Of a DNA stretch of 64,000 nt, positions 10,488 through 54,447 are shown one piece after another (positions within the stretch are counted from its first letter, which is position 1; every line of letters begins with the position of its first letter). Made by a program: the position numbers and the translations under genes. The notes below the pieces were generated by a model. It did not search any database. It saw only the letters and a program-made list of their open reading frames with translations, and was not told the origin of the DNA. Source of the DNA: Cupriavidus basilensis (GTDB lineage Bacteria > Pseudomonadota > Gammaproteobacteria > Burkholderiales > Burkholderiaceae); NCBI RefSeq assembly GCF_000832305.1, contig NZ_CP010536.1, positions 1,612,001 to 1,676,000 of the forward strand, given 5' to 3'.

Positions 10488-12692
10488 TTGCCCGACTCCG
10501 AAGACCTGCCCGCCGCCACCGTAACGTCAGATCCGTCTGATCACGCCGCTACGTCCGACATGCCCGACACGCCTGACTCGCCCGAAGCACCGGCGGCCAG
10601 CGCTGCCGGGCCGGCCGGTACGGCGGCTTCACACGCCGCCCAACTGGCCACCATCTTTGCCGAGACCGGGACCCTGGCCACCGGCATCGAGGGCTATCGC
10701 CCGCGCGCGGCGCAAGAGCAGATGGCCGCCGCCGTGGCCGGGGCGATCGAACGCGCAGACACGGTCATCGTCGAGGCCGGCACGGGCACGGGCAAGACCT
10801 TCGCCTACCTGGTTCCGGCCATGCTCTGGGGCGGCAAGGTGATCCTCTCCACCGGCACCAAGAACCTGCAGGACCAGCTTTTCCTTCGCGATATCCCCAC
10901 GGTGCGCAAAGCGCTCAATGTGCCGGTGTCGGTGGCGCTGCTCAAGGGGCGGGCCAACTACCTCTGCCATTACCACCTGGAGCGGGCCGAGATCCAGGGC
11001 CGCCTGGCTTCGCGCCAGGATGCCGCCTGGCTGCGCGAGATCGCCCGCTTTGCCAAAGTCACGTCGTCGGGCGACAAGGGCGAGCTGGCCTCGGTGCCGG
11101 AAAACGCGCCGGTCTGGCAGCTGGTCACCTCGACCCGCGACAACTGCATGGGCACGGAGTGCCCGAGCTACAAAGAGTGCTTTGTGATGCGCGCTCGCAA
11201 GGAAGCACAGCAGGCGGACATCGTGGTAGTCAACCACCACCTGTTCTTTGCCGACGTGGTGCTGCGTGACACGGGCATGGCCGAGCTGCTGCCAGCTGCC
11301 AATACGGTGATCTTCGACGAAGCGCACCAGTTGCCCGATACGGCGACGCTGTTCTTCGGCGAGAGCCTGTCTACCAGCCAGTTGCTGGAGCTGGCGCGGG
11401 ACACCGTGGCCGAGGGCCTCTCGCACGCGCGGGACGCCGCCGACTGGGTGCGGATCGCGGCCCCGCTGGAGCGCGCCGCGCGGGACCTGCGCCTGGCCTT
11501 CACCCGGGACAATTCCCGCCTGGCGGTGAGCCAGATCGAGGCGGACCCCCGCATCGGCAAGCCATTCTTCGAGACCCTGGACGCGCTCGAAACCGCGCTG
11601 GCAGAATTCGTGACCCTGCTGGAAAGCCAGGCTGAACGTGCCGAGTCGTTGGAGCAGTGCCATCGCCGCGCGGTGGAGCTCGACCAACGCCTTGCCGCCT
11701 GGCGCAGCGATGCCAAGGCGGCGCCACCGCCCGCCGCTGTGGAGGGTGATGAAAAAGCCCCGGCCAGCACGGCCCTCGGGCCGGAAACCGTGCGCTGGGT
11801 CGAGGTGTTCTCCCAGACCGTGCAGCTGCACCGCACGCCCCTGTCGATCGCGCCGATCTTCACCCGCCAGCGCGAAGGGCACCCGCGTGCCTGGATCTTC
11901 ACCTCGGCTACGCTATCTGTGAAGGGCAATTTCACGCACTATGCGGCTCAGCTTGGCCTGGACAAGGACAAGTCGCTGACGTTGCCCAGCCCGTTCGATT
12001 ACGCCACCCAGGGCTTGCTCTACGTGCCGCGCGACCTGCCGGCGCCGCAGTCGCCGCAGTTCACCGACGCCGTGGTGCAGACCGCGCTGCCGCTGATCGA
12101 GGCCGCCGGCGGCCGCGCTTTCCTGCTGTGCACCACGCTGCGGGCAGTGCAGCGCGCCTCCGACCTGCTGTACGAGGCCTTTGCCGAACGCGGCCTGGAG
12201 CTGCCCTTGCTGGTGCAGGGCCAGGCCAGCCGTACCGAATTGCTGGATCGCTTCCGCGAGCTTGGCAATGCGGTGCTGGTGGGCAGCCAGAGCTTCTGGG
12301 AAGGCGTCGACGTGCGCGGCGAGGCGCTCTCGCTGGTTATCATCGACAAGCTGCCGTTTGCCCCGCCCGACGACCCGGTGCTGGCGGCGCGCATGGAAGT
12401 GCTGCAAAGGAAGGGGCTGAGCCCGTTCGCCGTGCATCAGCTGCCGCATGCCGTGATCACGCTCAAGCAGGGCGCGGGGCGGCTGATCCGCTCGGAATCC
12501 GACCGTGGCGTGCTGGTGATCTGCGATACCAGGCTGGTTGAAAAGCCCTACGGCCGCCAGATCTGGCAGAGCCTGCCGCCCTTCAAGCGCACGCGCGAGG
12601 CCGAGACGGTGGTCCACTTCCTGGAGTCGCTGCGCAATGGCGAAAGCGCGCCGGCGGCTGGCGACGCAGGAGGGGAAGCCGCGCCCGATTGA
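10488..12692 (+). CDS. ATP-dependent DNA helicase, DinG/YoaA type (XPD-like, iron-sulfur)
   Basis: Superfamily 2 helicase. Motif I is EAGTGTGKTF. Four cysteines expected to hold a 4Fe-4S cluster appear in NYLCHYH and NCMGTECPSYKEC. The DEAH box is in VIFDEAHQL, and late motifs are GSQSFWEGVDV and QGAGRLIRS. The open frame begins at a TTG (10488); the first ATG is 10560 (MPDTPDSPEA). The first 50 residues are low-complexity, so the start is uncertain. A bidirectional terminator follows the stop. It resembles YoaA more than E. coli DinG, but I leave the symbol open. Confidence 0.92.
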   Translation: MPDSEDLPAATVTSDPSDHAATSDMPDTPDSPEAPAASAAGPAGTAASHAAQLATIFAETGTLATGIEGYRPRAAQEQMAAAVAGAIERADTVIVEAGTGTGKTFAYLVPAMLWGGKVILSTGTKNLQDQLFLRDIPTVRKALNVPVSVALLKGRANYLCHYHLERAEIQGRLASRQDAAWLREIARFAKVTSSGDKGELASVPENAPVWQLVTSTRDNCMGTECPSYKECFVMRARKEAQQADIVVVNHHLFFADVVLRDTGMAELLPAANTVIFDEAHQLPDTATLFFGESLSTSQLLELARDTVAEGLSHARDAADWVRIAAPLERAARDLRLAFTRDNSRLAVSQIEADPRIGKPFFETLDALETALAEFVTLLESQAERAESLEQCHRRAVELDQRLAAWRSDAKAAPPPAAVEGDEKAPASTALGPETVRWVEVFSQTVQLHRTPLSIAPIFTRQREGHPRAWIFTSATLSVKGNFTHYAAQLGLDKDKSLTLPSPFDYATQGLLYVPRDLPAPQSPQFTDAVVQTALPLIEAAGGRAFLLCTTLRAVQRASDLLYEAFAERGLELPLLVQGQASRTELLDRFRELGNAVLVGSQSFWEGVDVRGEALSLVIIDKLPFAPPDDPVLAARMEVLQRKGLSPFAVHQLPHAVITLKQGAGRLIRSESDRGVLVICDTRLVEKPYGRQIWQSLPPFKRTREAETVVHFLESLRNGESAPAAGDAGGEAAPD

Positions 12693-12722
12693 CCGCCTGG
12701 CGCGGGCGGCTGGCCAACAAAC

Positions 12723-12752
12723 AAAAAACCCGATCTTCCGATCGGGTTTTTT
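12723..12752. terminator. Bidirectional Rho-independent terminator
   Basis: AAAAAA, CCCGATC, a TTCC loop, GATCGGG, TTTTTT. It lies between the convergent helicase and bamD genes and works for both strands by symmetry. Confidence 0.92.
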
Positions 12753-12797
12753 GTTGCCGGCGCAGTTGCCAGCGCACTCAAGCGCCGTGCCTGACGT

Positions 12798-13628
12798 TCA
12801 GAACACTTCCCACCAGGACTTGTCCTTGCGGCGTTCCCCGTACTTGATGTAATCGCTGTTGGGGAAGTTCTTTTCCATCACGCGGGCGGTATCGTCGCGC
12901 AAGTCCTTCATGCCCAGCGAATCGTACGAGCGGATCATGATGTACAGCGCTTCCTCGTTGGCCGGCGCGCCGTCATAGTCCTTGAGCGCCTGCTGGGCCC
13001 GGTTTGCGGCGGCCAGGTAGGCGCCACGGCGGTAGTAGTAACGTGCCGCATGGACCTCGTGCTGGGCCAGCGAGTTCACGATGTATTGCATGCGCGCGGC
13101 AGCATCCGTCGTGTACTTGCTGTCCGGGAAGCGCGTGACCAGCGTGTTGAAGGCGTCATAAGCAGCGCGCGCGGCCTTGGGGTCGCGCTCGCTCAGGTCC
13201 TGACCGGAAAAACGGCCAAGCCAGCCCAAATTGTCATTGAAGTTGATCAGGCCCTTCAGGTAATAGGCATAATCCACGTTCGGGTGATTCGGATGCAACT
13301 GGATGAAGCGGTCGACCGAGGCAAGCGCGGCGGCGGTTTCGCCGTCCTTGTAGTTGGCGTAGGCGGTATCGATCTGTGCCTGCTGGGCGAAACGGCCGAA
13401 GGGATAACGTCCCTCAAGCTTCTCGTACAGCTTCACAGCTCGGGGAAAGTCGCCGGAATCTAGTGCGTCCTTGGCTTCCGAATATAATTTGTTAGCCGAC
13501 CAGCCGGCAGTTTCGTCTGGTTGATCCGACAGCAGGCCGCACGCCGATAGCATGACGCAGCCGCCTGCGAGCAGAATCGCTCCAATTCTTGCGCGCCAGC
13601 TGGCGCGCTTCATGCTCATCAATTGCAT
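12798..13628 (-). CDS. bamD: Outer-membrane assembly lipoprotein BamD
   Basis: Component of the beta-barrel assembly (BAM) machine, anchored in the inner leaflet of the outer membrane. The lipobox is LSAC within [12 protein letters not shown]. The mature part has TPR-like repeats ([35 protein letters not shown]), as in BamD/ComL. Length about 276 aa. Starts at 13628, 13619 or 13613 (MKRASW) are all possible; the last gives the tightest signal peptide. Only 16 bp separate it from divergent rluD, so each promoter probably lies inside the other gene. Confidence 0.93.
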
Positions 13629-43286: not shown

Positions 43287-43850
43287 TCCTTTTTGAGCGG
43301 TGTGGACCTTGACCGTTATGACCTGGAGTTTGTCGTCCTGTTGGGAGCATCGTGAAGCGGAAAATCGACGTTGCTGCATATTCTTGGCGGGTTGGACTGC
43401 CCGACGTCCGGGACCGTCGAATACGGGAAGCATGACCTGGCACACGCGGATGAGGCCGGTCTTATCCTCTGCCGCCGCGAACACGTCGGCTTCGTATTTC
43501 AGGTCTACAATCTGATTCCGAGCTTGGCGGGGCTGGAGAACGTCGCACTGGTGGCCAATATTGCCGAACATCCCATGAATCCGCTCGATGCCCTTGAGTT
43601 GGTAGGGCTATCGGCGCGCAAGGACCACTTTTTAGCGCAACTCGCCGGCGGAGAACAGCAGCGCATCGCCATTGCCCGGGCCGTCGTCAAGCAACCAGAC
43701 ATTCTTCTCTGCGACGAGCCGACTGGAGCGTTGGACTACAGCACGGGGAGGCTTGTACTTGAGGTTCTTCAGCGCGCAAATACGGAGCAAGGGGCATCGT
43801 CGCGCGCCGTGCTGGTGCCGTCTTGCCGTCGAACGGGCCGGACGAGATGA
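43287..43850 (+). pseudogene. MacB/LolD-type ABC transporter ATPase, interrupted in its P-loop and truncated
   Basis: Reading in one frame: GVDLDRYDLEFVVLLGAS, stop (TGA), [19 protein letters not shown], then Q-loop [13 protein letters not shown], signature [14 protein letters not shown] and Walker [13 protein letters not shown]. The TGA replaces the glycine codon GGA of GASGSGKST. The signature LSGGEQQR has Ser changed to Ala. The frame ends soon after Walker B, before the H-loop. The partner FtsX-like permease is not present. Confidence 0.75.
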
Positions 43851-43950
43851 GCACGCGGAAATTACAGCGGCTCCTCTAAGGACTCGATGCCATCCGGCGG
43901 CTGCATTGCGCGCAAGAAGATGAGTTTGATTTTTTCTTGGGAGGACAGGG

Positions 43951-44571
43951 ATGAGCGATATCGCAGGCTTGCTTGTCCTTGCCGTCGTGGTCTTTGGCTT
44001 GAATCTGATGCCAGCCTTTGCACCGCCGACTTGGATGGTGATGTCATGGATAGGATTTTCACTGCCGGAGGCCAATCCCGCGCTTCTGGCGCTTGCTGCG
44101 GCATGTGCAGCGACTACTGGCCGCCTGGTTTTGGCTCAGATGGCCTTTACACTGGTGCGCCAGCGCTGGATGCGTGAGGATGACAGGCGGAACATTGATG
44201 TAGTTGGTCAGTGGCTGGGGCGCCGCAAAAGCATGACAATGGGGTTCATGCTTGCCTATGCCTTCAGCCCATTCCCCTCGAACTATCTCTTCATTGCCTA
44301 CGGCCTCACAGGGATGCGGCTTTGGATGATTGGACTGCCGTTCTTTGCCGGACGCCTCATCAGCTATTTCATGTGGACGCATCTGGCCCAAGTGGGCTCG
44401 CGCTATCTGGACACGGATGTTGATGGGGCCTATTTCGGCCTGTACTTCGTTCTTTCGCAGCTGCTTCTTCTGGCGGCCGTGTACCTTTTCACAAGAGTGG
44501 ACTGGGTATGCCTGCTGCATGAGCGACGCTTACGTTGGCGACGCTCACGGAGACTATCTTCTCCACCGTGA
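43951..44571 (+). CDS. Multi-pass membrane protein of unknown function
   Basis: 206 aa. About five hydrophobic segments: IAGLLVLAVVVFGLNLMPAF, PALLALAAACAATTGRLVLA, a loop with DDRRNIDVVGQWLGRRKS, then FMLAYAFSPFPSNYLFIAYG, MRLWMIGLPFFAGRLISYF and FGLYFVLSQLLLLAAVYLF. The re-entrant style around FSPFPSNY recalls VTT/DedA-like proteins but is not a safe assignment. GGGAGG precedes ATG 43951. The last 15 residues are arginine-rich. Confidence 0.78.
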   Translation: MSDIAGLLVLAVVVFGLNLMPAFAPPTWMVMSWIGFSLPEANPALLALAAACAATTGRLVLAQMAFTLVRQRWMREDDRRNIDVVGQWLGRRKSMTMGFMLAYAFSPFPSNYLFIAYGLTGMRLWMIGLPFFAGRLISYFMWTHLAQVGSRYLDTDVDGAYFGLYFVLSQLLLLAAVYLFTRVDWVCLLHERRLRWRRSRRLSSPP

Positions 44572-44670: not shown

Positions 44671-46026
44671 TTACACGCGCTTCTGCATCGCTGGCGCAAC
44701 AAGCAAACGGTCGATGCTTACTTGCAGGCCGTCTTGCCAGCCCGGAACCGGGGAGCGTAGCTCAAGGGACGAACCCGCGCCGCGCACAATCGCTTCGACG
44801 ATAGCAAGGCCAAGTCCGCTGCCCTTGGCTGCCGTCGCGCCACGCTCGAAAGGCTTTGTCAGACGATCAAGTTCATCGTTCGGCAGCACCGGCCCGTGAT
44901 TCCTCACTGTGAGCGAACCGGTGGCCAGCAGCGAAATCCCCACGGTTTGCCCAGGTGAGCCGTGCTTTTGGGCATTTTCGACCAGATTGCGCACGACAAT
45001 GGCAAATGCGTCCTGATCAATCCACGACGGAACGGGCTGGTCGGGCAGGTCAAGCTGAATCGGGTTCGCAGAGGCCACGCGCCGAAAATCCTCGACTACA
45101 AGTTCCAGTACTGGTCGAAGATCCTGCGGCGCGTCCCCGAGCACGCGCCCATTTTCCGCCTTCGCCAGTTGCATGAGTCTTTCACTGACCCGCGACAGCG
45201 CGTGCAACCCCCGTTCGATGTTTTGTACTCGCTCTCGCACTCGGTCGGAAGGCGCTTCGGCCATGAGGCGCTGCGTCTGCGCAAGGGCTGCGGCAATCGG
45301 TGTGCGCAACTCGTGCGCGCTATTGGCAGTGAAGCTACGCTCCGCGGCCAGCGCGCGGTCCAGGCGAGCCATCAGGTCATTGACCGCGTCGGCGATCGGT
45401 GCGACCTCCGTCGGCAGTTCCTCTCTTTCGAGCGGTGTCAGGTCGTTCTGCCCACGTGCAGCGATGCTGTCGCAGAAGCGCCGGATTGGCCGTAGCCCGG
45501 TGCGGACAATCAGCCAGATGCCACACAGGCCCACCGGCAGAAACAGGATGAGGACCCTGGCGACCGCTAGCGCGGCTTCAATCACTGCATGCCGGCGCGT
45601 GGCGAGCGGCTCCGCGATCATCAGGGAGATCGTGCCCTGCAAGCCCGGCTCGGCATAGATCCGGTGCGACGCCGTTGAAGTGAAGCCCGCTTTCAGATCC
45701 GACGGGAAGATGACCGTATCGGCATCGTGCGATCGCAGCAAAAGTCTGCCCCTGTCATCGCGAACCGCGTAGGTCAGCAATTCGTCGTGTGGACGAACGG
45801 CTGCGATACGGCGGCTGCCATCGTCATCGCCATCCGCATCACGCCCGACGATATCCATGATGGCGAGTGGCAACAGGCGCTGCGCCGCTTCCTGCAACGC
45901 ACTGTCCGACATCCGATCGACTTCGTGGCGCAGCACGTAGAATGAAGCGGCCGCGGCCGCGAGCGACAGCACGGCGAGCCCTGCAACCAGTGCTGCCGCG
46001 AGTCGACCTTGCAGGCTGCGCAGCAT
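44671..46026 (-). CDS. Two-component sensor histidine kinase
   Basis: 451 aa. Two membrane helices (LAAALVAGLAVLSLAAAAASF and VLILFLPVGLCGIWLIV) bracket a periplasmic sensor of about 130 residues. Then come a HAMP region and a HisKA motif with phospho-accepting His in FTANSAHELRTPIAA. The ATPase boxes are N in VVRNLVENAQKHG and G in KGSGLGLAIVEAIV. It follows its response regulator by 2 bp. QseC/TctE-like organisation. Likely senses a periplasmic signal for the divergent redox operon. Confidence 0.93.
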   Translation of the reverse strand: MLRSLQGRLAAALVAGLAVLSLAAAAASFYVLRHEVDRMSDSALQEAAQRLLPLAIMDIVGRDADGDDDGSRRIAAVRPHDELLTYAVRDDRGRLLLRSHDADTVIFPSDLKAGFTSTASHRIYAEPGLQGTISLMIAEPLATRRHAVIEAALAVARVLILFLPVGLCGIWLIVRTGLRPIRRFCDSIAARGQNDLTPLEREELPTEVAPIADAVNDLMARLDRALAAERSFTANSAHELRTPIAAALAQTQRLMAEAPSDRVRERVQNIERGLHALSRVSERLMQLAKAENGRVLGDAPQDLRPVLELVVEDFRRVASANPIQLDLPDQPVPSWIDQDAFAIVVRNLVENAQKHGSPGQTVGISLLATGSLTVRNHGPVLPNDELDRLTKPFERGATAAKGSGLGLAIVEAIVRGAGSSLELRSPVPGWQDGLQVSIDRLLVAPAMQKRV

Positions 46027-46028
46027 GG

Positions 46029-46688
46029 TCAGTCCTGCTTCAGCCGATAGCCGAGCCCACGCAAGGTCTCAATGACATCGGCACCAAGCTTCTTGCGTAG
46101 GCGGCTCATATGTACCTCGATGGTGTTGCTGCCAATTTCTTCGTTGAAGGAGTAAAGGCGATCCTCCAGCCGGCTCCTTGATACGATTATTCCCGGATGC
46201 TGAATCAGCGCTTCGAGAAGTGCCCATTCACTGGCCGTCAGGTCGATGCGTGCGGCACCGCGCATCACGCTGCGCCCCACCGTATCGATACGGAGTCCGC
46301 CGAGCTCGACCAGGGGATTCGGATTGCCCGAATACCGGCGTGACACCGCGCCTACCCGTGCGGAAAGCTCTGACAGGTCGAATGGCTTGACGAGATAGTC
46401 ATCCGCGCCGGCGTTCAGGCCGGCGATGCGGTTCGATACCTGATCGAGCGCAGTCAGGATGATGACGGGCACGGTCGAACCACGCGCGCGAAGCTCTCGC
46501 AGGAAGTCGAGCCCCCGACCGTCGGGAAGCAGCAGATCGAGCAGGACTAGGTCGTAGTTAGCAGCAGCAAGGTGTCGGCGCGCCTCGGCGAGGCTGGCCA
46601 CGAAGTCGGTCGGATGTCCGTCTTTCTCGATCTGGTCGCGAACGGCCTCCCCGAGCCAAGGCTCATCCTCGATGAGAAGGACTCTCAT
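46029..46688 (-). CDS. OmpR/PhoB-type response regulator
   Basis: 219 aa. Receiver domain with acidic pair IEDEP, phospho-acceptor D51 in LVLLDLLLPDG, and K in YLVKPFD. C-terminal winged helix with SNTIEVHMSRLRKKLG. ATG 46688 (MRVLLIEDEP) replaces the longer frame start at 46727. It faces the PepSY/DUF2271 operon across about 140 bp, which should contain its binding sites. Confidence 0.94.
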   Translation of the reverse strand: MRVLLIEDEPWLGEAVRDQIEKDGHPTDFVASLAEARRHLAAANYDLVLLDLLLPDGRGLDFLRELRARGSTVPVIILTALDQVSNRIAGLNAGADDYLVKPFDLSELSARVGAVSRRYSGNPNPLVELGGLRIDTVGRSVMRGAARIDLTASEWALLEALIQHPGIIVSRSRLEDRLYSFNEEIGSNTIEVHMSRLRKKLGADVIETLRGLGYRLKQD

Positions 46689-46831
46689 TAAGATCTTCCT
46701 GATAGGTGTCTCGCGTGACTTTGCCACGCGAACCTGTCGCGAACATGAAGAAAATTCTTTGTGCCCGCAAGCTTGGCTTCAGGTTTCAGGTGCATTGTGG
46801 AGTCCAAGGATGCGAACGAGAGATGTTAGTC

Positions 46832-47245
46832 ATGAAACACCTGAGAATAGCCAGAAGCCTGATGCTCACCATGTTTGCACTTGTCGGCGCTGTCGGCATC
46901 CATCCCGCACAGGCGCACGACAGCGACGATTGCGAGGCGCCAGTGAATGCCTGGAAGCCGCGTGACGCTGTCCGGACGATGGCGCAGCAAAAAGGCTGGC
47001 AGATCGACAGGCTCAGGATCGACGACGGTTGCTACGAGGTCAAGGGGCATGATGCCGATGGCCGGCCTTTTAAGGCAAAACTTGATCCTGTCACCCTTGA
47101 CGTCGTCCGCATGAAGCGTGAAGACGCCGACCGCGGCGGAGCACGCGGACGCCTGCCGGACGCGAATACTGGCAGGCCACCGGCCGACGCACCCCACGAA
47201 GGCTTGCTGAAGCCGGGCGCGAAGCCCCAGGTCCAGATCCGCTGA
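46832..47245 (+). CDS. Exported PepSY-domain small protein
   Basis: 137 aa. The signal peptide is SLMLTMFALVGAVGIHPAQA, then two cysteines (DDCEAP, DDGCYEVKG) that could bridge. The PepSY-like unit is AVRTMAQQKGWQIDRLRIDD then GCYEVKGHDADGRPFKAKLD. A basic/proline tail follows. Such proteins are frequent targets of the two-component system they sit next to. ATG 46832 fits the signal; the frame is open upstream. Confidence 0.87.
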   Translation: MKHLRIARSLMLTMFALVGAVGIHPAQAHDSDDCEAPVNAWKPRDAVRTMAQQKGWQIDRLRIDDGCYEVKGHDADGRPFKAKLDPVTLDVVRMKREDADRGGARGRLPDANTGRPPADAPHEGLLKPGAKPQVQIR

Positions 47246-47358
47246 CCCCTTATTGCCGACGCACCGCGTACCTCATCGGCGTTGCCCCTGCTGAATCAGC
47301 GGCAGGCCAATGCGACGGGTGCGATGGCCCCCTTTTTGCCCAAATCAGGAGAATCCCG

Positions 47359-47826
47359 ATGAAACACGTAATCTCGATCGCCGTGCTTGCCGGCGCGCTT
47401 GCCGCGCCTTCACTGGCATCCGCGCGTCAGGTTTCGTTCGAAACGCAACTGTCGAGCTATGGGGGAGATGGCGCTTACGTTGCCATGTATGTCACCGATC
47501 GCACCGGACGGTACCAGGGCACGCTATGGGTGGCAGGGCGCAAAGCCAAGTACTACCGGCATCTGCGCGACTGGTATCGCGCCACGGGCGGCACCGCAAA
47601 GGTAGACGGCATTACGGGCGCCAGCGTCGGCGCAGGCAAGACGCTGCGTGCGACGCTGGATCTGTCCGACACGCTGCTCGACGCCGGATATGAGGTCCAC
47701 ATTGACACTGCGGTCGAGGACATGAAGGAGTACCCGTCCGAGGTCGTCGTGCCGCTGACCACCTCGGGCGCGAACAAGACGGTCAAGGGGAGCGGCTATG
47801 TGAAGTCGTTCCGCTATTCACTGTAA
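47359..47826 (+). CDS. DUF2271 exported protein with flavinylation motif
   Basis: 155 aa, signal peptide ending LASARQ. The DUF2271 beta-domain includes AMYVTDRTGRYQGTLWVAG. Residues 83-89 read DGITGAS, which fits the ApbE flavinylation consensus D-x-x-(S/T)-G-A-(S/T); T86 would carry FMN through a phosphoester. An ApbE gene lies in the same operon. CAGGAG precedes ATG 47359. I infer that this is the periplasmic electron acceptor of the fused reductase encoded next. Confidence 0.88.
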   Translation: MKHVISIAVLAGALAAPSLASARQVSFETQLSSYGGDGAYVAMYVTDRTGRYQGTLWVAGRKAKYYRHLRDWYRATGGTAKVDGITGASVGAGKTLRATLDLSDTLLDAGYEVHIDTAVEDMKEYPSEVVVPLTTSGANKTVKGSGYVKSFRYSL

Positions 47827-47851
47827 CCGGGGCTCGACGAGGAGGTGCCCG

Positions 47852-50059
47852 ATGTTACGTAAGCTCCATTCAATCCCCGGACTCGTCGCCGCATTGCTGA
47901 TGACGATCGTCGCCTTGACAGGCGTGGCGCTATCTGTGAATCCGGCACTTGAGCACGCAAGTGCCGTCCGCCCAGGCCAGGCTCCGCTCAGCGTTGCAAC
48001 GCTCGCCAGCCGCGTGAGCACCTCGGTGCCCGATGTCGAAACACTCATACGCCGGCCGTCAGGGGCGATCATCGCGTACTACCGGGCCGGCGGCGAACAG
48101 CGTGCATCGATCATTGATCCCGCTAGCGGCAAGGCTGTCGGCGATTATCGACCCTCGCCTGTCGAGCGTTGGCTGAGGAACCTGCACCGCAAGCTCTTTC
48201 TCGGCGACGCTGGCCGGATCGCCACCGGTGCAACTGCAGCTTTCATGCTATTCGCGGCGTTCTCCGGGCTTGTATTGCTCGCCCGCCGGATGGGCGGGTG
48301 GACGCATATCCTGGCCCCGATCCGGGGTGATGGGTTGCAGCGTTTGCATAACGAAACTGCACGAGCCGCGCTTGCCGGCCTCACGCTGTCCGCGATGACC
48401 GGAGTCCTCATGTCGTTGACGACGTTCGGCGTGATCCCGGAAGGCGGCGCGCAGCAGCCCGTCCTCAGCGTTTCGGCAATCACCACGCCCCCGATGCCAC
48501 TGCGGCAGATGCCCGCACTGGCAATAGATGTCTCCAGCCTGCGTCAGTTGACGTTTGCCAACGCCGCCGACCCGAGCAGCATCATCGAAGTGAATACGAC
48601 GGATGGAGCCGGTTATGTCGATCCATCGTTAGGCAGATGGCTTGCCTTTCAGCCCGCCGACGCCTGGCAACGTGTGCACGGGGTTGTCCGCATGCTGCAC
48701 ACGGGCGAAGGACTATGGTGGCTTGGTCTGATTCTCGGCGCATCGTCGGCGTCGGTGCCGTTGCTGGCCGCAACCGGCCTGCTGCTGTGGCTGCGTCGTC
48801 GACGGGCCATGCCGAAGCTCGCCCGCAACGTGCCGGCACGCGACGCGGATACTGTGTTGTTGGTGGGCACCGAGGGCAATAGCACGTGGGGCTTTGCTTC
48901 GGCACTGCATGCAGCGCTGACCCAGGCTGGCCTTCGCGTGCATGTTGCGCCGATGAACGATTTTGCAGCCGGCCGCAGCCTGCGGCATCTGCTAGTCCTG
49001 ACTGCGACCTACGGTGACGGCGATGCACCGGAGAGCGCTATACGATTCCTGCCGAAGCTCGGACGCCTGACGATCCCTGGCGGGGTGGCGTTCGGGGTCT
49101 TGGGCTTCGGCGACCGCCAGTTTCCTCATTTTTGCGGCTATGCGCGAACGGTTCATGACGCGCTGACCGCCAGGGGGCTGGAAGCACTGACCGAGCCGGG
49201 CACGGTTGACCGGCAATCTGAACCCGAATTCCGGCAGTGGTGCACGGGGCTAGCCAAAAGGCTCGGCGTGTCGCTGGATATCCGCTACACACCATTGCTG
49301 CCGCCCACGATACCGCTCAAGCTCGTCTCACGTGAGGACTATGGTGCGGATCCGGAGGACAGGACTTCAGTGCTGCGTTTCATGCCTGCCGAGGGGGCAA
49401 GATTCTGGGCCACCCTGCGACGGCCACGGCTGCCTCGGTTCGAGACGGGGGATCTGCTCGGCGTCGTGCCGCCGGGCGCCACCTCGCCCCGGTACTACTC
49501 GCTCGCGAGCGCGACGGCGGACGGCCTGGTCGAGATCTGCGTGCGGCGTCATCTGAACGGCGTGTGCTCCGGGTATCTCACAGGCCTGCGGCCCGACGAC
49601 ATGATTGAGGCATTCATGCGGCCGCACGCGTGCTTTCGGCCGGGTGCCGGTAGCGCGCCAGTGATCCTGATCGGGGCCGGTACCGGGATTGGTCCGCTGA
49701 TCGGTTTCATCCGGCACAATGCGGCCCGCCGTCCCATGCACCTGTATTTCGGTGCGCGCAATGCTGACGATGGCTTCCTGTACCGCGACGAGCTCAAGCA
49801 CCTCGTAGCCGACCGGCGGCTGCAGGCACTCACGACTGCCTTCTCACGTTCCGGAAGCCGGAGCTATGTGCAGGAGCGCCTTCTCGCCGATACACAGAGC
49901 TTGCGCACCCTGGTTACGCACGGCGCGCAAATCATGGTGTGCGGCGGCCGCAGGATGGCGGAGGGTGTCGCGCAGGCGTGGGAACGTATTCTGACGGATA
50001 CCGGCTTGTCCGTCGCACAACTGAGAGCACAGGGACGCTATGTCGAAGATGTCTATTGA
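47852..50059 (+). CDS. PepSY-membrane / flavodoxin / FNR-type reductase fusion
   Basis: 735 aa. The N-terminal half is a PepSY-TM module: helices near residues 10-30, 125-145, 170-195 and 290-315, a periplasmic part between the first and second, and possible haem-ligand histidines (LHSIPG, NLHRKL, RLHNET, RVHGVV, RMLHTG). The second half is cytoplasmic: a flavodoxin-like domain from about 335 (VLLVGTEGNSTWGFA, TATYGDGDAPES) and a CysJ-like FAD/NAD(P) reductase (RYYSLAS, GAGTGIGPLIGF, VCGGRRMAEGV). It should pass electrons from NAD(P)H across the inner membrane. AGGAGGTG precedes ATG 47852; 20-base overlap with apbE. Confidence 0.92.
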   Translation: MLRKLHSIPGLVAALLMTIVALTGVALSVNPALEHASAVRPGQAPLSVATLASRVSTSVPDVETLIRRPSGAIIAYYRAGGEQRASIIDPASGKAVGDYRPSPVERWLRNLHRKLFLGDAGRIATGATAAFMLFAAFSGLVLLARRMGGWTHILAPIRGDGLQRLHNETARAALAGLTLSAMTGVLMSLTTFGVIPEGGAQQPVLSVSAITTPPMPLRQMPALAIDVSSLRQLTFANAADPSSIIEVNTTDGAGYVDPSLGRWLAFQPADAWQRVHGVVRMLHTGEGLWWLGLILGASSASVPLLAATGLLLWLRRRRAMPKLARNVPARDADTVLLVGTEGNSTWGFASALHAALTQAGLRVHVAPMNDFAAGRSLRHLLVLTATYGDGDAPESAIRFLPKLGRLTIPGGVAFGVLGFGDRQFPHFCGYARTVHDALTARGLEALTEPGTVDRQSEPEFRQWCTGLAKRLGVSLDIRYTPLLPPTIPLKLVSREDYGADPEDRTSVLRFMPAEGARFWATLRRPRLPRFETGDLLGVVPPGATSPRYYSLASATADGLVEICVRRHLNGVCSGYLTGLRPDDMIEAFMRPHACFRPGAGSAPVILIGAGTGIGPLIGFIRHNAARRPMHLYFGARNADDGFLYRDELKHLVADRRLQALTTAFSRSGSRSYVQERLLADTQSLRTLVTHGAQIMVCGGRRMAEGVAQAWERILTDTGLSVAQLRAQGRYVEDVY

Positions 50060-51023
50060 GGCGTTGCCAGACACGCAATTCAAGCTTTGGCGCGTGAGCG
50101 GTGCGACGATGGGAACCCGCTACACGGCGGCCTTCCATACGTCGCCGAAGGCGGACGAAAAAGAACTGGCGGCGCGGCTTGCTGCGGCGCTTGGCTCGGT
50201 TGACGAGCAGATGTCGAACTGGAAGGAAAGCTCCGACGTGTCACGGTTGAATCGTGCCGAGCTGGACTGCTGGGTGCCGGTGTCCAGGAATCTCGCGGCT
50301 TTGCTCGCACGTGCGATGGAGATCGGCAACGATACGCACAACGCCTTCAACATCGGCGTCGGCGGGCTTGTCGGTTTGTGGGGTTTTGGGCCATCGGGCG
50401 AGCAGCGTGCACCTCGCCCAGGCGCGGTGCACACGTTCAAGGCAAGCCCATGCCCGTCTGTGAGCGAACTGATTGACGTGGATGTGCAACGGTGCCGGGT
50501 GCGCAAGCGGGGACCCGTTGCGCTGGATCTGTGTGGTATTGCAAAGGGGTTCGGCGTCGACGAACTTGCACGCGTGTTAAGCGAGCACGAGATCGACTCA
50601 TGGCTTGTCGGCATCGACGGTGAAATGCGCGCGTGCGGAAGCAAGCCGGATGGGTCGCCGTGGGCGATTGCGCTTGAGGCCCCGGATTACGAGCGGCACG
50701 CCGCAATGGGCGTGATCGAACTGAGCAACGCCGCTATTGCGACGTCTGGCGACTACCGCCACTGGGCTGACATCGACGGTGTGCGTATCTCGCACACAAT
50801 GGATCCCCGAACCGGCGCGCCACTGCGCAGTTCCGTTGCGTCGGTGACGGTCATTGCACCGACATGCGCGGACGCGGACGCCTACGCGACAGCCTTGCTG
50901 GTGCTCGGCGCGCAGGCGGGGCGAGATTATGCTCAGCGCAGGCGCCTCGACGCACTCTTCGTCGTACGCGACGGCGATGCGCTGCGCACGATCGGGACCG
51001 GCTACTTTGCCAATGCGCGCTAG
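50040..51023 (+). CDS. apbE: FAD:protein FMN transferase ApbE
   Basis: 327 aa. It attaches FMN from FAD to a Thr/Ser in target proteins. Family motifs: WRVSGATMGTRYTA, NDTHNAFNIGVGGLVGLWGF, DLCGIAKGFGVDELA, SWLVGIDGEMRACG and the C-terminal ISHTMDPRTGAP. No signal peptide or lipobox is visible, unlike most exported ApbEs, so its place of action is open. It starts 20 bases inside the reductase gene, so the two are coupled. The likely target is the DUF2271 protein at 47359. Confidence 0.93.
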   Translation: MSKMSIEALPDTQFKLWRVSGATMGTRYTAAFHTSPKADEKELAARLAAALGSVDEQMSNWKESSDVSRLNRAELDCWVPVSRNLAALLARAMEIGNDTHNAFNIGVGGLVGLWGFGPSGEQRAPRPGAVHTFKASPCPSVSELIDVDVQRCRVRKRGPVALDLCGIAKGFGVDELARVLSEHEIDSWLVGIDGEMRACGSKPDGSPWAIALEAPDYERHAAMGVIELSNAAIATSGDYRHWADIDGVRISHTMDPRTGAPLRSSVASVTVIAPTCADADAYATALLVLGAQAGRDYAQRRRLDALFVVRDGDALRTIGTGYFANAR

Positions 51024-51219
51024 GACCCTGGCCAGTTTTTGCTGCCGGTATGCGCTGTTGCCATACGCCCAGCGCGGCGATGTCTTCCGTGACGGCATTC
51101 CGGTTGCAGACGTCATCCAGACCTGGCTCGACGTCTCGGCTCACCTTGCACGCGGCGCAGAGCAGGCGGCGGAACTGGAACACGGGATTCTTGCAAACGC
51201 CGTCGAAGAAAGCGCTTGA
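51013..51219 (+). pseudogene. C-terminal relic of an antitoxin-like regulator (uncertain)
   Basis: About 68 residues; DVFRDGIPVADVIQTWLDVS followed by AHLARGAEQAAELEHGIL resembles the C-terminal end of AbiEi-type or related regulator proteins (PVADVIQxWLDVxxHPxRGxEQA, from memory). No N-terminal domain precedes it because the frame runs into apbE. It may be debris from an earlier insertion. Confidence 0.35.
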
Positions 51220-52839: not shown

Positions 52840-53733
52840 TTATTGTGCAGGCTTATCGCTGCGCGCCTTGATATTGGCGCGTAATGCGTCGCTCATCGGC
52901 ATATTCAAATTCGCGCCGGCGGGAGGGATAGGCGATTCAAACCATTTCTTGTACAGCCGCGCGAACTCCCCCGACTTCATCAACCGTGTGATGGTTCCGT
53001 CCACCAACTTCTTGAACTCGGTGTCGTCCTTGCGAACCATGCAGGCATACGGCTCAACTTGAAGGGTATCGCCTACGATCTCGAGTGCGGAAGGATTTCC
53101 AGAGTTGGCTCGCAGGCCAAACAGCAGCACGTCGTCAAGGGCAAGCGCCACGGCGCGGTCGTTCAATACCAGTTGCATGGCATCCGCATAGTCCTTGCCG
53201 GAGACGAATTGGATATCCAGATTGTGGTCGGCGCTGAATTTGTTCAGCAGTTTCTCGTTGGTGCTACCGGCCGTACTGGCCACCGTCTTCTTCGTTAGAT
53301 CTGAGTAGTTCTTAATGCCTGAGCTCTTCTTGGTCAGCAGGCGCGTGCCGGCGTAGAAGACGTTGATCGAAAACGCCACCTCTTTGCCGCGTGCACTGGT
53401 GTTGGTGGTGGATCCGCACTCCAGATCATAGGTGCCGCTTACCAACATGGGGATTCGGTTTTGGCCGGTCACCGGGACGTAGTCGACCTTAAGGTGAGGC
53501 TTCTTCAGCCGGGCACGCACTTCGTCAACGATCGCTTCTGTCAGATCGACCGAGAATCCGACTGCCTTGTGTGGTGCCAGCAGATAGCTGAACGGCACGG
53601 CGGCCTCCCGATAGGAGACCGTGATCGTGTCGCTTGACGCGATCTTTTCCAGGGTTTGAGCATAAAGATCTGAGGCACCGAGCGGCAGTCCGGCAGCGAT
53701 CAGCATAGTGGCGACTACGGGAATGCTTTTCAT
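52840..53733 (-). CDS. Glutamate/aspartate-type ABC transporter periplasmic binding protein
   Basis: 297 aa from ATG 53733 (MKSIPVVATML; GGAGAA upstream). Signal peptide ending near DLYAQT. Family 3 solute-binding fold: SDTITVSYREAAVPFSYL, KAVGFSVDLTEAIVDEV and MLVSGTYDLECGSTTNTSARG match GltI. No permease or ATPase gene is adjacent, so it is an orphan receptor here. Confidence 0.91.
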   Translation of the reverse strand: MKSIPVVATMLIAAGLPLGASDLYAQTLEKIASSDTITVSYREAAVPFSYLLAPHKAVGFSVDLTEAIVDEVRARLKKPHLKVDYVPVTGQNRIPMLVSGTYDLECGSTTNTSARGKEVAFSINVFYAGTRLLTKKSSGIKNYSDLTKKTVASTAGSTNEKLLNKFSADHNLDIQFVSGKDYADAMQLVLNDRAVALALDDVLLFGLRANSGNPSALEIVGDTLQVEPYACMVRKDDTEFKKLVDGTITRLMKSGEFARLYKKWFESPIPPAGANLNMPMSDALRANIKARSDKPAQ

Positions 53734-54447
53734 TTTTATGTTCTCCATTCAAGCGTCCGAAGGGGCGGCCAATCTGGTCGCCGGCATGCTAATACGACTG
53801 TAGATGCCACCGCGGTCGCGTGGTTGACCAATGTCAACGCGCGACGAACGGGGACGGCGCCGTTGGTTGATGTTTGTGCTTTATGCGGTACCTGCAGGTT
53901 CAAGCTTCAAGACGCCCTGACTTGGGGGCCGCCTCCTTTGTCAGTGGTTCTTGCTACACGAGGGCAAAAACTTGCCCGCCAGCGATTGACAGCATCAGCA
54001 GCAGTTCAGTTGCGGGTAATATTTAGCATCTTGACGTGCACTTGCTTTTCCATCACGTCAGTGGTGATTGTGTCCCGGCATGATGTTCAGGTCGTGTTAA
54101 ACCGGCATTTCATGTGCTTGTGACTCCTTGATCTCCTTCTGTTCGTCCATTAGGAACAGATCGCAGCCTTCCCCGTTCTTGTAGCCCTCGACGAACGGTT
54201 CGACCACGGCGGTGAGTTCGGCGGTCACCAGGCCATATGCGACGCTCGTAAACTCAACAGGATCTCGCGCTCTGTTCATACGAATCAATCGAAATTGCTG
54301 TAGTCAGAACAGAAACGAAAAAGGCCAACGAGAGTAAGGTTGCCAACATAGCTTGCCTCCTGTTCCTTTGTGCTCAGTTCGGACTACTGCCATGTCCTTA
54401 ATGCCACAACGAAGACGGGACGACGCAAGTCCTAGACTCCAACTGTT
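53734..54447. other. Gene-poor stretch with one doubtful small frame
   Basis: A 63-codon minus-strand frame at 54097-54288 (RDPVEFTSVAYGLVTAELTA) has protein-like composition but no ribosome site or known family. The remainder is non-coding as far as I can see and somewhat AT-richer (53990-54110). Confidence 0.35.

Follow-up and report, generated by a model that had tools for sequence, protein, structure and literature searches.

The stretch of DNA analysed here (the window) covers 64,000 nucleotides of Cupriavidus basilensis (NZ_CP010536.1, positions 1,612,001 to 1,676,000). It contains a candidate transmembrane flavin electron-transfer operon, in which a PepSY_2 protein, a DUF2271 protein, a PepSY_TM-flavodoxin-FNR fusion, and the flavin transferase ApbE are encoded in this order. 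All of the genes named in the original prediction were found in the open reading frame (ORF) list and the Pfam scan. The two-component system faces the operon as described, with kinase and regulator on the minus strand opposite the plus-strand genes; the kinase gene lies just beyond the range of 46029-51023 considered earlier. The ORF of the response regulator extends to 46727, and the conserved start is 46688. The PepSY_2 start at 46832 is supported by a gene of 414 bp annotated on a Cupriavidus plasmid. The first 20 bases of the ApbE gene lie within the end of the fusion gene, and the same overlap was found in 9 of the 11 plasmid loci having both genes annotated. Rfam and tRNA scans of the whole window gave no match, and a promoter scan of 46600-51200 found no sigma-70-like site.

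Table 1. Features of the operon and its surroundings (positions in the window).
Feature	Position	Strand	Match or remark
VTT-like membrane protein, neighbour outside the core	43951-44571	+	91% over 191 amino acids to a Cupriavidus plasmid gene
Sensor histidine kinase, QseC-like periplasmic sensor	44671-46026	-	HisKA, HATPase_c
OmpR/PhoB-type response regulator	46029-46688	-	Response_reg, Trans_reg_C
Degenerate box CTGAC-N6-CTGAA-N28-TTCAG, 2 mismatches	46734-46782	.	1/1000 shuffles
PepSY_2 protein, first operon gene, signal-like N-terminus	likely 46832-47245 (ORF from 46706)	+	PF13670
DUF2271 protein, Sec-type signal peptide, predicted carrier of flavin mononucleotide (FMN)	47359-47826	+	PF10029, 132.2 bits (cut-off 27.3)
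Flavinylation motif DGITGAS, DUF2271 residues 83-89, predicted acceptor Ser89	47605-47625	+	
PepSY_TM-flavodoxin-FNR fusion, 735 amino acids	47852-50059	+	PF03929, PF00258, PF00175
ApbE flavin transferase, no recognisable signal peptide	50040-51023	+	PF02424, 261.3 bits (cut-off 25.6)

The survey took in every DUF2271 place that exceeded the Pfam cut-off in 398 sampled genomes (69 places), together with 18 named relatives and further members of the genus. Two classes were distinguished. Class A has the make-up of L091, the second DUF2271 locus of the same genome, which encodes PepSY, DUF2271, DUF4198, ApbE, and a separate flavodoxin-FNR protein, with Thr as the acceptor. Class B is the type of the window; it accounts for 14 of the 69 places, the window included, and for 35 distinct loci after six duplicates (L092-L095, L098, L099) were removed. 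These 35 loci contain the fusion in 34 cases, an adjacent ApbE in 33, the divergent kinase and regulator in 26, and PepSY_2 in 25; DUF4198 was found by profile in none of them. By its sequence, the window locus is a distinct variant, and the genome also carries the type with DUF4198 and Fur-box-like sites elsewhere (L091).

The ApbE enzymes attach FMN to the last residue of D-x-x-[S/T]-G-A-[S/T], and Thr is preferred over Ser (PMC12052999, section 8). The DUF2271 protein carries DGITGAS at residues 83-89, which fits this motif, and ApbE is encoded in the same operon, as first noted. However, the flavin acceptor had been placed at T86, whereas the published rule places it at the last residue. 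Because ApbE modifies the last Ser or Thr of the motif, FMN is predicted to sit on Ser89, and a T86A mutant would not be the right one to make. Conservation of the motif beside ApbE, on which the original prediction had been made to depend, was observed, with [ST]GAS in 35/35 class B loci. The final residue is Ser in all of these, and Thr in all other rows except L134. All of the 120 DUF2271 homologues listed (2804 were found) also keep [ST]GAS, with Ser as the final residue. At this level of sequence conservation, the motif is not due to chance.

The DUF2271 homologues have a clear Sec-type signal, with a best hydropathy of at least 1.83 in the 118 of the 120 listed ones that were scored. The predicted structure is β-rich and of low confidence, with a mean predicted local distance difference test score of 70 and a motif loop below 50. 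Comparison of this model with the PDB gave no match at E 0.001 or better. Tags of only seven residues suffice for flavinylation, as reported in a passage of PMC12052999. Because such tags are modified, and the motif loop ranks with the most poorly ordered regions of the model, ApbE may not require a folded substrate.

Loss of the motif did not cleanly track loss of ApbE in class A. Six class A loci without a nearby ApbE read SSA[ST], others without ApbE keep GAT, and L159, L161, and L164 read SSAT though beside an ApbE. The motif Gly is replaced by Ser (such as DAVTSAT) in L125, L131, L134, L135, L138, and L141, which are class A loci with DUF4198 and no ApbE nearby.

The ApbE of the window has 20 residues ahead of the catalytic motif, with no hydrophobic stretch. 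Leaders were scored by the best 10-residue mean hydropathy before the catalytic motif, a simple and crude scale, on which the N-terminal signal peptide or lipobox of an exported ApbE was not found in the window protein. Among the 33 class B ApbEs, the 31 scorable leaders all score at most 0.56, and two are too short to score. None of the 118 scorable proteins among the 120 listed ApbE homologues exceeds 1.12, many of the 120 being near-identical Burkholderia entries and not independent. The other ApbEs of the same or related genomes score at least 1.65 in 23 of 27 cases, many with lipobox or twin-arginine leaders; the low-scoring exceptions are L228, L230, L240, and L241. The original prediction was right to place ApbE in the operon, but it overlooked the missing recognisable signal peptide. 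Because this ApbE has no recognisable signal peptide while its substrate has one, the simplest reading is that DUF2271 is likely flavinylated in the cytosol before export. Twin-arginine export of DUF2271, considered as a way out of this topology puzzle, was rejected, with RR in the first 14 residues in 0/120 listed homologues. The DUF2271 protein of the class A paralogue L091 begins MRRLL.

Two other ApbE arrangements were noted. In L121-L124, DUF2271 and ApbE are fused in single proteins with signal-like N-termini, and flavinylation there would be outside the cytosol. An N-terminal R-[VI]-L-[VI]-P...PP peptide, which resembles neither a normal signal nor the catalytic domain, is common to the class A ApbEs of L091, L101, L102, L151, and many of L175-L203.

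The fusion protein matches PF03929 with 133.8 bits, and its gene adjoins those of DUF2271 and ApbE, as in the PepSY-like flavinylation systems. Four membrane histidines (H6, H112, H166, and H283) are invariant in 40/40 sequences, as in a FoxB-like bis-haem protein. The fusion had been proposed to move electrons from reduced nicotinamide adenine dinucleotide or its phosphate, NAD(P)H, to the periplasm. Its domains do support the prediction of a PepSY haem protein driven by NAD(P)H, but the two b haems, NADPH as the donor, and the outward electron flow are what we infer from the sequence. FoxB (7abw) matched the membrane half in a profile search (E 9.5e-10). The two fold searches run with the complete fusion each listed 50 matches, taken up by the soluble half, and FoxB was not among them; the membrane half as a single sequence matched no PDB chain. 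The likeness to FoxB is the PepSY_TM membrane half with conserved histidines. However, the FoxB chain (382 amino acids) is without a fused reductase domain, whereas the window protein has flavodoxin and FNR fused; DUF2271 would also be its likely periplasmic partner, unlike in FoxB. The diflavin reductases NADPH-cytochrome P450 reductase and CysJ differ in that the reductase of the window is fused to a PepSY_TM membrane domain. Another candidate flavinylation site, TGAT near residue 125 of the fusion, was rejected, as it was not conserved in 40 sequences.

The best NCBIfam matches of the kinase and the regulator are QseBC/PmrAB, yet far below the curated equivalog cut-offs (QseC 150.4 vs 475 and PmrB 123.7 vs 314 for the kinase; PmrA 208.5 vs 330 and QseB 175 vs 345 for the regulator). 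The kinase is also below the cut-off of the curated CopS model. Its sensor region can be aligned throughout class B, and the class B regulators cluster together in a FastTree tree, printed without support values. The gap between the regulator and PepSY_2 genes of the relatives contains CTGAC-N6-CTGAA-N17-TTCAG-N6-GTCAG, tandem repeats pointing away from each other, as would be expected for an OmpR-type regulator serving both sides. This box pair was found in all 11 loci that could be tested outside the Cupriavidus/Pandoraea/Paraburkholderia clade (L013 and L117 could not), with 0/300 shuffles each; the box was read by eye from the same sequences, so the shuffle figure is not independent. The spacing is 17 in eight of these loci, and 9, 18, and 37 in one each. 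The N28 spacing of the degenerate window box (Table 1), one 11-base unit above N17, was picked after viewing the sequences.

A pattern search of the 398 genomes, allowing at most 2 mismatches, found matches in 14 genomes, and the reversed control found none. Eight of the 14 are class B, and in seven of these the box occurs a second time, between the divergon and the DUF2271 gene. In G604, G708, and G711, the same regulator group, kinase, and box occur with PepSY_2 and cytochrome b561, and no DUF2271. In G685, they lie beside genes for a protein resembling FMN_bind (20 bits, under the cut-off of 22), an ApbE with a short leader, and an NAD-binding fusion of the NQR/RNF-like type. The matches in G533, G604, G708, G711, and G685 and the second copies had no part in defining the box. 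The matches in G558 and G432 (2 mismatches) had no such two-component system alongside in the stretches examined, and were taken as chance. Judged by these gene neighbourhoods, the regulator group is tied to other membrane electron-transfer modules as well, in genomes without DUF2271.

Two related loci were also noted. In L266 (486-5338), the same regulator group was found together with a box (2 mismatches) that precedes the gene of an FMN_bind-like protein; this protein contains SGAS and has a signal-like N-terminus. An ApbE with a short leader and an NAD-binding protein of the NQR/RNF-like type are also encoded there. In L244 (4294-5358), the second PepSY_2 gene of the C. basilensis genome directly precedes a cytochrome b561 gene; no two-component system was noticed alongside, and none was specifically searched for.

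Relatives of P-type ATPase, VIT or CDF queries were found near 14/35 class B loci (flanks of 6-9 kb). The DUF2271 protein matched 97 plasmid records, of which 71 are typed conjugative and 38 come from one genus, class B membership being checked only in part. Fourteen plasmid stretches were chosen for variety, and 13 of them are annotated. A P-type ATPase, VIT or CDF gene is present in 11 of the 13, and absent from L279 and L280. The recurring neighbour metal transporters are of kinds that usually export. A response regulator and a kinase are present in 13/13; the pair of L276 is co-oriented with the operon, and the kinase of L279 is in pieces. The Cupriavidus plasmid ATPase in L270 has a TPC motif and a C-terminal hemerythrin domain, and the Thioclava ATPase gene has the TPC motif and no hemerythrin match. 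The TPC motif is presumably a mark of P1B-5 ATPases. This pairing of TPC and hemerythrin occurs in some P1B-5 ATPases according to a passage of PMC9388753, where a reference title assigns Ni and Fe transport to Sinorhizobium Nia, of the same type. A ferric-reductase-like protein is added in the operons L110, L112, L113, and L273, and cytochrome b561 in L271. On the latter, a Shinella plasmid, an IS6 transposase follows the fusion (11688-12810), and no ApbE is annotated there.

Because class B has its own two-component system and frequent metal-transport neighbours, including on plasmids, a role in a metal-stress response rather than iron uptake is favoured with moderate confidence. Alternatively, the operon might serve periplasmic repair or the handling of redox stress, with the DUF2271 flavin passing electrons to oxidised proteins, peroxide or some acceptor other than a metal. 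In favour of this, the b561 and NQR/RNF-like modules come with this regulator group and box, and no metal pump was recognised among the genes labelled or scanned there. This is quite improbable for the operon: metal transporters recur as its neighbours, and none of the annotated genes near it on the plasmids was conspicuous as a repair reductase, although no search was aimed at one.

The explanation that fits best, which we rate slightly better than even, combines these results in one pathway. ApbE would put FMN onto Ser89 of DUF2271 in the cytosol, and the flavinylated protein would then leave by Sec export. NADPH electrons would pass via the two predicted haems of the fusion to the exported flavin. 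The divergent two-component system likely turns the operon on through the tandem TTCAG-N6-GTCAG half-sites. The electrons probably end up on an oxidised metal in the periplasm, Fe(III) first; this step is the weakest.

Several observations weigh against this pathway, in its topology as well as in its control and its metal role. The ApbE signal-peptide calls rest on the crude hydropathy scale. The passages of PMC12052999 report an early study in which a periplasmic location was essential for ApbE function, and a cytoplasmic Klebsiella ApbE that serves a cytoplasmic target. G532 and G623 carry a class B DUF2271 without an adjacent ApbE, and have exported ApbEs of their own elsewhere, which makes periplasmic modification of DUF2271 possible. 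The N-terminus of the second ApbE of the C. basilensis genome is ambiguous (2.3), with a signal possible on the same scale, and many class A ApbEs are likewise ambiguous. These points would fit an ordinary PepSY/DUF2271 system, in which flavinylation is periplasmic, carried out either by an exported ApbE encoded elsewhere or by this ApbE after unconventional export, and in which the leaderless ApbE may serve another, cytosolic target; periplasmic ApbE is also the rule (PMC12052999). We consider such a system somewhat unlikely. The genome encodes only two ApbEs, both beside DUF2271 genes, and gave no FMN_bind match; the leaderless ApbE is the sole one in G452 and G674. The ApbE gene also overlaps the fusion gene here and on most of the plasmids, and no [ST]GA[ST] is conserved in the region of the fusion checked.

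On the side of control, the two-component system is absent from 9/35 class B loci, and no significant N17 pair was found in 13/13 tested loci of the window's clade, the window's own box included. On the metal side, none of the ATPase, VIT or CDF relatives lies near 20/35 loci, and the window has only a 48-residue ATPase remnant. Iron uptake, in which iron-starved cells would use the electrons to reduce ferric siderophores and import them, was also weighed. The PepSY_TM relatives reduce ferrisiderophores (PMC13038864), the PepSY-like clusters have been linked to iron (PMC8238504), and a related Caulobacter operon is Fur-repressed (PMC3751524). Fur-like sites were scored against a Fur consensus, with mismatches counted over 19 positions. 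The best site of the window has 6 mismatches (3/200 shuffles), a weak match, but no worse than several of the class A sites, which have 3-8 mismatches of 19, so Fur may control the operon. Among the latter, the site of L091 has 5 mismatches (0/200 shuffles), and 12 of the 13 others are below 5% of shuffles, L151 being the exception. However, the window site overlaps the start and first codons of the response regulator, and the locus of the uptake type belongs to another class, which has DUF4198 and, upstream, Fur-like sites. The frequent neighbours of the operon are also metal transporters of usually exporting kinds. A ferric reductase for iron uptake is therefore judged unlikely, and the siderophore or iron uptake role first suggested for the operon is weakly supported.

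The surroundings of the operon point to a larger block. The window contains, at 43371-44571, an ABC (ATP-binding cassette) transporter ATPase fragment, a 48-residue remnant of a hemerythrin P-type ATPase (43808), and the VTT-like gene, which stays beside the operon on Cupriavidus plasmids. By sequence comparison, this segment is the leftover of a metal-transport block that is intact beside the operon on the Cupriavidus plasmids L204 and L270. A solute-binding protein gene at 52840-53748 has 92% identity to a gene close to this operon on L270, which suggests a shared island reaching past the operon.

The core idea is already in print: the passages of PMC8238504 describe DUF2271 as a proven ApbE substrate, and PepSY/DUF2271/ApbE clusters. 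The Amantichitinum DUF2271 is flavinylated by its ApbE, and replacement of the target Thr by Ala abolishes this. Of the 3220 PepSY-like clusters published there, 2833 contain DUF2271 and 1500 contain DUF4198, and 1077 PepSY-like genes have an NAD-binding domain. These clusters (Meheust et al. 2021) share with the window the PF03929 membrane protein, DUF2271 with [ST]GA[ST], and ApbE. The window differs in the absence of DUF4198 (optional there), in a dedicated two-component system with PepSY_2, in the Ser acceptor, and in an ApbE without a recognisable signal peptide. The Caulobacter CC3059-3063 operon, as described in part of PMC3751524, and L091 share DUF2271, ApbE, and a flavodoxin-FNR reductase with the window, and L091 also has the PepSY protein. 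They differ in that DUF4198 is present and the reductase is on a separate gene; the Caulobacter operon is Fur-regulated. The cytoplasmic Klebsiella ApbE (PMC12052999) is also without a signal peptide, but it acts on a fumarate reductase that is soluble and cytoplasmic, whereas the only evident target in the window has a Sec-type signal. In the open-licence literature, searched by titles and passages, no description of a leaderless ApbE or a two-component link was found. The leaderless ApbE with a leader-bearing substrate, the conserved two-component system with its box, and the metal-transport neighbours look new.

We tentatively propose, at somewhat less than even confidence, a wider scheme in two parts. 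A dedicated leaderless ApbE would flavinylate its substrate in the cytosol before Sec passage, with no export of flavin adenine dinucleotide (FAD) needed. A single group of two-component regulators, with its palindromic tandem box, would command interchangeable electron-export modules (PepSY-diflavin/DUF2271, cytochrome b561, ferric-reductase type, and NQR/RNF-like with FMN_bind) across Pseudomonadota. The location of ApbE is a sharp and testable anomaly. If the flavin is attached before export, the chain carries a bulky cofactor through the Sec channel, which would revise the usual view that ApbE has to work in the periplasm alongside exported FAD. The regulator box common to these modules would be a handle on which signal calls for electron export. 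The plasmid carriage beside metal pumps suggests that an electron kit may have moved from iron hunger to metal stress.

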